This document shows positions 10,879-14,906 of a stretch of 64,000 bases of DNA, one piece after another. The stretch's first letter is position 1; each line of letters begins with the position of its first letter. The stretch comes from Methanohalophilus levihalophilus (GTDB taxonomy: Archaea > Halobacteriota > Methanosarcinia > Methanosarcinales > Methanosarcinaceae). The notes below the pieces were generated by a model. That model did not search any database, was not told the origin of the DNA, and was given only the letters and a program-made list of their open reading frames with translations. The stretch covers positions 124,001-188,000 of the forward strand of contig NZ_JAGGLK010000003.1 in assembly GCF_017874375.1 (NCBI RefSeq), read 5' to 3'. The translations under genes were made by a program, and so were the position numbers.

Positions 10879-11102
10879 TTAACAGTCTGAGTGCATCACT
10901 ATTTTTGGATTTATCAGTACAGAAATTGTATCTCTGGAAATCCCAAACGTTTATATGAGACTCCAATAATATTTTACTTCGGTAAAGGGTTTGGTAGTAT
11001 AGTTTGATTCCGTTACGAAAACGAAGGTGTGCTATGGAATTCAATCCTTATTTTGGCATGCCGTGAGTTGAGTAGTTAACCATTAATTCAAAGGGTATTC
11101 AC

Positions 11103-12365
11103 ATGAAAGAAATTTTAACTGAAGAATTATCTGAAAACCTGAATAAGTATAAGGTGATTGATGTAAGGTCTGTTGATGCTTATAATGGGTGGAAAGAAGG
11201 TGGGGAAACAAGGGGCGGTCACATAAGGGGTGCAAAATCGCTGCCCTATAAATGGTTACATTTTATTGACTGGATAGAAATTGTAATGGACAAGAATATC
11301 CATCCAGATGATTCCCTTGTCATCTATGGCTATGAGGCCGACAAGACTGAAGAAGTGGCAAAGCAGTTTGAAAAAGCCGGCTATCCGGATGTAAGTGTTT
11401 ACAACTCTTTTTTGGAATGGGCGGAAAACGGATTGCCCATGGAACATCTTGCACGATATCGCCAGCTGGTATCGGCAGACTGGCTCAACCAGCTGATTAC
11501 AACCGGTGATGCTCCTGAATATGGCAATGACAAGTTCGTGGTTTGTCATGGACACTACCGTAACCCTGCGGACTATGATGAAGGTCATATCCCGGGTTCA
11601 ATTCCAATTGACACGAATTCCCTTGAATCGACTAAAACCTGGAATCGTCGTACTCCCGAGGAAATCAAAGAAACCCTGGAGAATGCAGGCATCAGTCACG
11701 ACACAACAGTAATTCTCTATGGAAGATTCTCCTCCCCGAACAACGATGATCCGTTCCCCGGAAGCAGTGCCGGGCATCTGGGATCAATTAGGGCTGCATT
11801 CATCATGCTTTATGCCGGTGTCAAGGATGTTCGCATCCTGAACGGCGGTCTCCAGTCCTGGCTTGATTCTGGATACGAGATTACCAAAGTTCCTGCTGAA
11901 AAAGAGAGGGTATCCTTTGGAGTTGATATTCCTCAGAAACCTGAAATTGCAGTAGATCTCGAAGAAGCAAAAGAAATTCTTGCATCCCCTGACAAGAACC
12001 TTGTATGCGTCAGGAGCTGGAGGGAGTACATTGGTGAGGTAAGCGGTTATAATTATATTGAGAAAAAAGGCCGGATTCCGGGATGTGTATTCGGGGATTG
12101 CGGTTCGGATGCTTATCACATGGAAAATTACCGGAATCTTGATCATACGATGCGTGAGTATCAGGAAGTTGAGGAAAGCTGGAAGAAGATTGGGATTACC
12201 CCGGAAAAGCGCAATGCTTTCTATTGCGGAACCGGCTGGAGGGGAAGCGAGGCTTTCTTCAACGCCTGGCTCATGGGCTGGGATAAAGCAGCAGTCTATG
12301 ACGGCGGCTGGTTTGAATGGAGCAACAATGATCTTCCGTATGAGACAGGGGTTCCCGAAGAATGA
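11103..12365 (+). CDS. eanB: multi-domain rhodanese, EanB-like (hercynine sulfur transferase)
   Basis: A 420-residue protein of three rhodanese-like units. The first two (about residues 1-115 and 125-270) lack an active-site Cys. The third ends in an active loop YCGTGWRGSE with Cys375 directly preceded by Tyr. In anaerobic ergothioneine biosynthesis, known from Chlorobium limicola, EanB is such a rhodanese; its persulfidated Cys sits next to a Tyr and inserts sulfur into the imidazole C-H of hercynine without oxygen. Here the next gene encodes the matching histidine methyltransferase and overlaps it (ATGA). The function is inferred from architecture and gene pairing; a plain thiosulfate sulfurtransferase is the main alternative. 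Confidence 0.8.
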   Translation: MKEILTEELSENLNKYKVIDVRSVDAYNGWKEGGETRGGHIRGAKSLPYKWLHFIDWIEIVMDKNIHPDDSLVIYGYEADKTEEVAKQFEKAGYPDVSVYNSFLEWAENGLPMEHLARYRQLVSADWLNQLITTGDAPEYGNDKFVVCHGHYRNPADYDEGHIPGSIPIDTNSLESTKTWNRRTPEEIKETLENAGISHDTTVILYGRFSSPNNDDPFPGSSAGHLGSIRAAFIMLYAGVKDVRILNGGLQSWLDSGYEITKVPAEKERVSFGVDIPQKPEIAVDLEEAKEILASPDKNLVCVRSWREYIGEVSGYNYIEKKGRIPGCVFGDCGSDAYHMENYRNLDHTMREYQEVEESWKKIGITPEKRNAFYCGTGWRGSEAFFNAWLMGWDKAAVYDGGWFEWSNNDLPYETGVPEE

Positions 12366-13324
12366 TTATTGAAGATTACATGCCCAAGGTTGGGGATAAC
12401 GGAACACAGGAGTTACTGCTGTCCTGTCTGAAATCAAATCCGAAAACACTCCCTTCGGTGTTTTTTTATGATCATCACGGATCTGAGTTATATGAAGAAA
12501 TAACCCGGCTGGATGAGTATTATCCCCCGAAGATAGAGATTCCGCTACTCAGGTCAACAGCCCGGAAACTGAAAAGCGAGTTGAAAGACTGCGATATAGT
12601 GGAGCTTGGCAGCGGGGATTGCTCAAAGATTTCAGTGCTGCTGGATGAGGTTCCCGAGAAGATTCGCCGGACTATAGTTTATTATCCGGTTGACGTTAGC
12701 AAAAACGCAATTGAGAAGTCTGCCTGCAATCTTCAGGAAAAGTATCCTGAAATGGGAATTCATGGTATTACTGCTGATTTCCTCAAGCATATTGAAAAAA
12801 TACCCGGGGACAGAAAACGATTCTTTTGTTTTTTTGGAAGCACAATAGGCAACCTGTCTGAAGAAAAGGCAATAGAATTCATGGGCAACCTCGGAAAAGA
12901 GATGAATGAAAATGACCGGCTTCTTCTCGGGATGGATATGGTAAAAGACATCGACGTGCTCGAGAAAGCCTATAATGACAGCAAGGGTGTAACTGCAGAA
13001 TTTAATAAGAACATACTGATTGTTACAAACAACCATCTTGGAACCAATTTCAATCCGGATGACTTCGAACACGTTGCTTTCTTCAATAAGGAATATTCCC
13101 GCATAGAGATGCACTTGAGAGCAAAAAAGGATCTTGAAGTTTCAAGTCCCCTGTTAAATGAGGCTATAAGAGTCAAAAAAGGCGAGACCATTCACACTGA
13201 AAATTCCCATAAGTATACCGTTGAAGGAATCCGGAAGATGGCAGATGCTGCGGGGCTTTCCGTAGCACAGATTTTTTCCGATGATAAAAGATGGTTCTCT
13301 CTTGTTGAAATGGTGAAAAAATGA
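12362..13324 (+). CDS. eanA: L-histidine N-alpha-methyltransferase (EgtD/EanA-like)
   Basis: An SAM-dependent enzyme of the EgtD family that trimethylates histidine to hercynine. It is 320 residues long, the usual length. The N-terminal signature FFYDHHGSELYEEI leads to TRLDEYYPPK (residues 49-57), the SAM motif is ELGSGD (81-86) and FFGSTIGN ends at Asn164. Near the C-terminus TENSHKYT provides Glu280 and Ser282, which match the pair that contacts the substrate imidazole in mycobacterial EgtD. This supports histidine rather than another amine as substrate. The gene overlaps the rhodanese gene by 4 bp and the cysteine desulfurase gene by 4 bp. No oxygen-dependent EgtB is present in the window. 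Confidence 0.85.
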   Translation: MIIEDYMPKVGDNGTQELLLSCLKSNPKTLPSVFFYDHHGSELYEEITRLDEYYPPKIEIPLLRSTARKLKSELKDCDIVELGSGDCSKISVLLDEVPEKIRRTIVYYPVDVSKNAIEKSACNLQEKYPEMGIHGITADFLKHIEKIPGDRKRFFCFFGSTIGNLSEEKAIEFMGNLGKEMNENDRLLLGMDMVKDIDVLEKAYNDSKGVTAEFNKNILIVTNNHLGTNFNPDDFEHVAFFNKEYSRIEMHLRAKKDLEVSSPLLNEAIRVKKGETIHTENSHKYTVEGIRKMADAAGLSVAQIFSDDKRWFSLVEMVKK

Positions 13325-14502
13325 CTGGTTTTGCAAATGACTTCCCTATACTTGCACAGGAGGTATACGGGAGACGATTGGTTTACCTTGATAATGCTGC
13401 AACTACGCAAAAACCGGATTGTGTGATTGATGCAATATCTGATTTTTACAGGAAAGACAACAGTAACATCCATCGCGGTGTTCATTACCTTAGTGAGGTT
13501 GCCAGTGAGAAGTACGAAGAGGCACGCAAAAAAGTGAGTGATTTCATAGGTGCGCCAGAACAGAGCGAAGTGACATTCACTTCCGGAACAACCGGCTCAA
13601 TCAATCAGGTTGCTCGTTCTCTCGAACCTACATTGAAGGGAAACGAGGTTCTCGTAACAGGCGTGGAGCACCACTCAAATATCGTTCCCTGGCAGCTCGC
13701 AGGAGCAAAACTAAGGGCAATACAGGTTGACGATGATTGTAATCTTCTTCTGGACTCGATGGAATTCACAGATAAAACCAGACTGGTTGCCATAACCCAT
13801 GTTTCCAACGTACTTGGCTGCATTAATGAAATCAGGGAAGTTGTGAAAATAGCAAAGGAGCACGATGTTCCTGTACTGGTTGATGCAGCCCAGTCAATAC
13901 AACACATACCCATTGATGTCAAAGACATTGGGTGCGATTTCCTTGCATTTTCAGGTCACAAGATGTATGCCTCAACAGGTGTCGGAGTGCTTTATACAAG
14001 CGAGCGTTTCAGCGATGTCATGCCTGCAATAGGAGGCGGAGGCATGGTTGAAAAAGTTGAGCTTGAAAAAACAACCTTCCTGAAACCTCCCCTCAGGTTT
14101 GAAGCAGGGACACCGGATATTGCAGGAGCAATCAGTATTGGTTCTGCAATTGATTATTTGCAGAAAATAGGAATGGACAAAGTAAAGAAGCATGAGCATG
14201 ACGTCTATTCCTACGCAAGGGATAAACTGATGGAAATGGACATTGTCAGGATTTATGGAACCGCAGATGAGATGTGTGGGGCTATCTCATTCAATCTGGA
14301 AGATATTCATCACTATGATGCAGGGTTGATACTGGACAAGATGGGTGTTGCTGTCAGGACCGGTCATCACTGTGCCCAGCCATTAATGCGATTCCTTGGC
14401 GTGGAAGGAACAGTTCGGGCAAGTTTTGCATTGTACAACACAAAAGAAGATGTGGACATGCTTGTTGAAGGAATACAGAAAGTAGAGATGATTCACAATT
14501 GA
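13321..14502 (+). CDS. sufS: cysteine desulfurase, SufS type
   Basis: A PLP enzyme that takes sulfane sulfur from cysteine and leaves a persulfide on its own Cys. It has 393 residues of the group II (SufS/CsdA) type. The PLP lysine is in SGHK (Lys214), with LVDAAQS before it for the cofactor ring and GVEHHSN for the phosphate side. The catalytic Cys351 lies in RTGHHCAQP. It overlaps the methyltransferase gene upstream and SufE downstream. Many methanogens lack or sparingly use cysteine desulfurases, so its fixed place behind the EanA/EanB pair suggests it feeds sulfur to EanB rather than only to Fe-S clusters; this is inference. Confidence 0.93.
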   Translation: MTGFANDFPILAQEVYGRRLVYLDNAATTQKPDCVIDAISDFYRKDNSNIHRGVHYLSEVASEKYEEARKKVSDFIGAPEQSEVTFTSGTTGSINQVARSLEPTLKGNEVLVTGVEHHSNIVPWQLAGAKLRAIQVDDDCNLLLDSMEFTDKTRLVAITHVSNVLGCINEIREVVKIAKEHDVPVLVDAAQSIQHIPIDVKDIGCDFLAFSGHKMYASTGVGVLYTSERFSDVMPAIGGGGMVEKVELEKTTFLKPPLRFEAGTPDIAGAISIGSAIDYLQKIGMDKVKKHEHDVYSYARDKLMEMDIVRIYGTADEMCGAISFNLEDIHHYDAGLILDKMGVAVRTGHHCAQPLMRFLGVEGTVRASFALYNTKEDVDMLVEGIQKVEMIHN

Positions 14503-14906
14503 GAGACGCTATTCAAGATGAAATAATAAAGGAATTCGACGGCCTTGAATGGTTTGACAAATACGGTCTCCTCATTTCCTTTGGCAAAGTTCTCGAACCG
14601 ATGGATGCTGAGTTTAAAACAGAAGAAAATGCAATCAGCGGATGCCAGTCGAAAGTCTGGATCAATAGTTTAGTTAATGACGGAAAATTGGTTTTCAGCC
14701 TTGATAGTGATGCAATGATTACCAAGGGAATAATTTCCCTTTTGATGAAAGTGATAAATAATCGGTCTCCCCAGGAGATTCTGGATCTCGATTTGTATTT
14801 CATTGATGATATTGGCTTGAAGTCAAATCTATCACCTGCCCGATCAAACGGTCTGGCGTCGATTATTAGCAGGATCAGGGAAATAGCTAAAGAGAAGGCA
14901 GATTGA
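14499..14906 (+). CDS. sufE: SufE-like sulfur acceptor
   Basis: A 135-residue SufE-fold protein that accepts persulfide sulfur from SufS and stimulates its turnover. The acceptor Cys49 lies in the canonical SGCQSKVW loop. The start is TTG, overlapping the SufS stop by 4 bp, so translation is coupled. It closes the four-gene operon. No SufB, SufC, SufD or IscU gene is nearby, which fits a dedicated sulfur relay to the rhodanese encoded three genes upstream. Confidence 0.92.
   Translation: MRDAIQDEIIKEFDGLEWFDKYGLLISFGKVLEPMDAEFKTEENAISGCQSKVWINSLVNDGKLVFSLDSDAMITKGIISLLMKVINNRSPQEILDLDLYFIDDIGLKSNLSPARSNGLASIISRIREIAKEKAD

Follow-up and report, generated by a model that had tools for sequence, protein, structure and literature searches.

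The closest described system for anaerobic ergothioneine synthesis is the EanA/EanB pair of Chlorobium limicola (Clim_1148/Clim_1149; PDB 6KTV, 6H98), in which Tyr353, Cys412, Thr414 and Arg417 of EanB have been named as catalytic residues (PMC10903977; PMC9103826). The same gene pair is predicted in methanogens: Methanohalophilus mahii is listed among the organisms possessing eanA and eanB (Burn et al. 2017, as credited by a 2025 review, PMC11993508), and a 2020 review names the pair of Methanococcoides vulcani, ergothioneine not having been detected in archaea at that time (PMC7278568). SufS and SufE go unmentioned in the parts of these sources that deal with the pair. Another anaerobic system, the metallopterin ergothioneine synthase (MES) of Caldithrix abyssi, dedicates a cysteine desulfurase to the sulfuration of hercynine by means of a persulfide relay; its C-S bond is formed by a molybdopterin enzyme to which the desulfurase is fused as a domain, and a SufE does not figure in its description. 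Finally, the SufS-SufE and CsdA-CsdE pairs of E. coli associate a desulfurase with a sulfur acceptor, SufS-SufE adjoining SufABCD.

The locus analysed here belongs to the halophilic methanogen Methanohalophilus levihalophilus and lies in a window of 64,000 nucleotides, the whole stretch of DNA under analysis (contig NZ_JAGGLK010000003.1, positions 124,001 to 188,000). It assembles the two enzyme families of the C. limicola system with the desulfurase and acceptor families of E. coli, in an order that starts with eanB and places sufS and sufE downstream; the comparison with C. limicola was made at the level of the proteins. The four overlapping genes that the initial annotation had proposed at 11103-14906 are all present as open reading frames (Table 1) and match, in order, the Pfam profiles rhodanese (three domains), Methyltransf_33, Aminotran_5 and SufE. 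Each junction is a 4-bp overlap. At the last one, the TTG start of sufE overlaps the stop of sufS (TTGA), and most relatives have the same sufS/sufE overlap with an ATG or GTG start. The entire chain of overlaps is seen again in most relatives read, while the neighbours outside the operon vary between genomes. A TATA-like element, TTTATATG, is read ~150 bp 5' of eanB and is a candidate promoter element. As far as can be judged from the sequence, the four genes would form one translationally coupled unit whose pathway very likely makes the antioxidant ergothioneine without oxygen. The presence of ergothioneine genes in a methanogen, put forward initially, holds as regards EanA and EanB; it is not new for Methanohalophilus since M. 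mahii is already listed in the literature, nor for methanogens, M. vulcani having been published as well.

Table 1. Features of the ergothioneine locus in the window.
Feature	Coordinates	Strand	Description
upstream region	10879..11102	+	224 bp, divergent from cation-ATPase gene (sequence read)
eanB	11103..12365	+	420 aa, three-domain rhodanese-type ergothioneine synthase (predicted)
eanA/egtD	12362..13324	+	320 aa, predicted histidine N-alpha-trimethyltransferase
sufS	13321..14502	+	393 aa, predicted group II cysteine desulfurase
sufE	14499..14906	+	135 aa, TTG start, predicted sulfur acceptor/carrier

The window EanB is 61% identical to C. limicola EanB (405 aa) and 39% identical to E. coli YnjE, with phmmer scores of 589 bits over 407 residues against the C. 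limicola structures (6ktv/6h98) and 279 bits against YnjE. In the alignment, Tyr353, Cys412, Thr414 and Arg417 of C. limicola correspond to Tyr316, Cys375, Thr377 and Arg380, all conserved. An active Tyr-Cys loop had been recognized at the outset: Cys375 does lie in the YCGTGWR motif and aligns with Cys412, but the adjoining tyrosine is not the catalytic one, that role falling to Tyr316. The loop was discarded as proof of EanB identity; it is not diagnostic by itself because YnjE also carries equivalents of the four residues. These equivalents, with the 39% identity, are what the operon would have in common with a YnjE-like thiosulfate or molybdopterin-synthase sulfurtransferase serving some other function. 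Such an assignment is very improbable in view of the higher identity and score to EanB, of 29 positions that are invariant among the compared EanBs and different in YnjE, and of the fixed EanA neighbour, whose gene overlaps eanB by 4 bp here and in the majority of the methanogen operons read. Overall identity, the 29 further positions and this neighbour are what tells EanB from YnjE. Close homologues of the rhodanese grouping with thiosulfate sulfurtransferases and lacking EgtD neighbours, which the initial annotation had named as evidence against itself, were not what was found.

EanA scores 350.3 bits on TIGR03438 (EgtD; curated NCBIfam cut-off 290.9) and 355 bits on PF10017. Alignment to mycobacterial EgtD matches N166, E282, S284, M252, F216 and Y56 of the latter to N164, E280, S282, M250, F214 and Y53, and the equivalent of Y39 is also kept; the substrate Glu/Ser pair is present, as claimed, in the form of E280/S282. 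The C. limicola methyltransferase has the same EgtD-type substrate residues. The roles of individual residues in EanA, and in SufS and SufE below, are presumably those generally attributed to these enzymes. Profile score, identity and substrate residues support the equation of the rhodanese/methyltransferase pair with EanB/EanA, which would very likely constitute the anaerobic ergothioneine pathway. SufS-family enzymes are also able to use selenocysteine, so that a different histidine thiol or selenol (another methylation state, or selenoneine) might be thought of as the product. This is improbable, as the histidine-binding residues of EanA match those of EgtD and its score exceeds the EgtD cut-off, and as EanB did not yield selenoneine when its synthesis was tried (PMC9103826).

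A distant PF10017 relative occurs elsewhere in the Methanosarcinaceae (L247 5049-8335 in genus g13, probably Methanosarcina; L248 4562-8033 in genus g5), situated, by eye, between radical SAM/SPASM-like and arginine-deiminase-like proteins. The histidine motif Glu-x-Ser seems to be missing from this relative, which reads MGFTYKYT in place of TEVSCKF and may for this reason belong to another biosynthetic cluster.

The operon SufS is a stand-alone protein of 393 residues, devoid of the MES-type fusion of a molybdopterin module to the desulfurase. It reaches 519 bits on TIGR01979 (curated cut-off 475), and its PLP lysine Lys214, Cys351, His117 and Arg366 align with the catalytic columns of E. coli SufS. 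SufE scores 139.6 bits on PF02657 (cut-off 27), and Cys49 in its GCQS motif is the counterpart of Cys51 in E. coli SufE. Families and catalytic residues are thus those of the E. coli pairs, whereas the setting is different: sufB/sufC are not found beside sufS/sufE, the single SUFBD_core match lying on contig C1 and the operon on C3, where EanB is the neighbour. Searches by family identified IscS-IscU, SufBC and another SufS-like gene outside the operon in the source genome; since IscS-IscU and SufBC have separate genes there, the operon is not needed to provide these families. The second SufS-like cysteine desulfurase lies, by eye, near a YcaO-TfuA pair on contig C2 (L213 4436-7936), a position suggesting that it provides sulfur for thioamide formation. 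On the same contig, two DsrE-like small proteins precede the IscS-IscU pair (L214 2860-5873, by eye) and may form with it a separate sulfur relay.

The distribution of SufE was surveyed in 112 genomes of the family and in 375 genomes (130 genera) of the phylum. EanB is encoded by 29 of the 112 family genomes, in two of which the operon is split over contigs. SufE is present in all 29 and in two others, and absent from the remaining 81. In the first of the two, G051, sufE, sufS and part of eanA are present and the contig ends inside eanA. The second, G018, keeps nothing of sufE but its last 32 codons, followed by the gene that Methanococcoides operons have downstream (L211 1-700), from which it follows that everything upstream in the cassette was lost by deletion; G018, considered as a case of SufE without EanB, was dropped because its SufE is a pseudogene remnant, a deletion scar. 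Methanohalophilus, Methanococcoides, Methanolobus and Methanosalsum (genera assigned by sequence) each comprise genomes with and without the pair. At the level of the phylum, SufE occurs in 25 of 375 genomes and is restricted to the same four genera, as is full-length EanB; the remaining matches to the EanB query are weak rhodanese matches of 29-33% identity. SufS-like genes, for their part, exist in all 112 family genomes, and the discriminating partner is for this reason SufE and not SufS. The proposed genome survey of the four genes accordingly returns a SufE that tracks EanB across both samples.

This distribution bears on the possibility that SufS-SufE works in the assembly or repair of Fe-S clusters, its co-expression with the ergothioneine genes being no more than a stress response. 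SufS and SufE classically supply SufBC, and the source genome does have a SufBC pair. It is located on another contig (C1), however, a separate IscS-IscU pair exists as well, and 81 of the 112 family genomes do without any SufE while every EanB is accompanied by one; the Fe-S explanation consequently appears improbable.

The cassette recurs in other phyla, where most of the loci are MAGs. The order eanB-eanA-sufS-sufE is found in nine of them, on contigs named Aminicenantes, Elusimicrobia (2), Thermoplasmatales, Phycisphaerae (Planctomycetes), Omnitrophota (3) and Fibrobacter; one Thermoplasmata contig stops within sufS. Seven further loci have eanB adjacent to sufE and one has eanB-sufS-sufE, these arrangements being encountered in Caldithrix, Ignavibacteriales, Gemmatimonadetes, Chitinivibrionales and others. 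In one of the seven (L077), a long open frame had raised the suspicion of an EanB-SufE fusion, which was dropped because the two genes, although overlapping, are read in different frames. In these genomes, positions having been compared by hand for some of them, no SufE was detected besides the linked one, with the exception of Caldithrix, which has two. No SufE was seen in G117, whose contig ends before sufE. EanB is present in 2 of 237 Omnitrophota genomes, both with SufE, and three other Omnitrophota genomes carry a divergent, unlinked SufE. By eye, a NUDIX-like gene is near this SufE in the three loci (L242, L243, L244) and a dCTP-deaminase-like gene in two, and no SufS was detected nearby. 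The idea that SufE is exclusive to EanB everywhere was abandoned in view of these three genomes and of the Bacteroidota, which have SufEs of their own: many of their EanBs have no linked SufE, a SufE being encoded elsewhere. The EanB family as a whole thus needs no linked SufE.

Gene trees separate the linked proteins to different degrees. Linked SufEs form one clade versus unlinked ones (support 100/99), and linked and unlinked SufS separate weakly (69/86). Constraining the Omnitrophota SufEs to group by organism is rejected (p-AU 0.0035), so the cassette has probably moved between lineages. A quick tree also unites the linked EanBs, that of the window among them, in a single clade (SH-aLRT 92) to which neither C. 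limicola EanB nor most Bacteroidota proteins belong. The operon SufS of methanogens is dissimilar to the other SufS-like protein of the same genome, and that of the window groups with Methanococcoides SufS rather than with that of Methanohalophilus sp. RSK, a member of the genus to which the source genome belongs, which makes exchange between genera possible. Eight EanB positions distinguish SufE-linked from unlinked proteins, five of them within residues 208-231; this segment is a possible docking or tunnel region, a lead that is confounded by ancestry. There may be two EanB subtypes, a proposal for which the chances appear even: that of Chlorobium and Bacteroidota, without linked carrier, and that of a SufE-coupled four-gene cassette, which would have spread over bacteria and archaea and in which SufE would be a persulfide donor devoted to sulfurating the C-H bond of a small molecule, with no part in Fe-S assembly.

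From what is observed, namely the gene identities, the residues, the SufE-EanB association and the recurrence of the cassette, we infer each chemical step of the following scheme. EanA would methylate histidine to hercynine, while SufS would draw sulfur from cysteine, carry it as a Cys351 persulfide and deliver it to Cys49 of SufE. SufE would hand it on to Cys375 of EanB, which would insert it into the hercynine imidazole with Tyr316 as acid/base. Operon anatomy and SufE exclusivity favour such a private line from cysteine to EanB, and a SufE-coupled Ean pathway (SufS to SufE to EanB to hercynine), distinct from Fe-S assembly, is given a probability of about 0.75. The coupling to SufS-SufE advanced by the initial annotation holds in co-presence and co-absence over the 112 and 375 genomes, in the deletion remnant, in other phyla and in gene trees. 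As for the transfer itself, direct persulfide exchange from SufE to EanB would be the likeliest mode, slightly better than an even chance. It has to be weighed against a release of soluble polysulfide or perthiol from cysteine by SufS-SufE, taken up by EanB through its tunnel without specific contact with SufE. EanB was active in vitro with the cysteine desulfurase IscS and cysteine, a result later re-read as polysulfide; the latter is the best in vitro donor for C. limicola EanB, whose Cys412 ends a 13 Å tunnel, a position from which it was argued that no protein could be the donor (PMC9103826). The polysulfide route keeps some weight because of this buried cysteine and this in vitro use. It is nonetheless rather unlikely: the strict and private association between SufE and a single clade of EanBs exceeds a generic need for sulfane sulfur, and SufS alone could make polysulfide.

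A full-text search, covering few subscription papers, found no paper linking EanB or ergothioneine with SufE, and none of the papers containing both ergothioneine and SufS was about this pathway, as far as titles and the start of abstracts indicate. This is weak evidence that the novelty lies in the SufE-coupled Ean subtype. Whether a cysteine desulfurase or polysulfide provides EanB with its sulfur in nature is disputed, and the locus with its relatives offers a genome-based candidate, testable with four proteins. Should the relay prove true, SufE would gain a role outside Fe-S assembly. The locus would add a complete gene set for the anaerobic production of ergothioneine, whose presence in methanogens would become a simple measurement.
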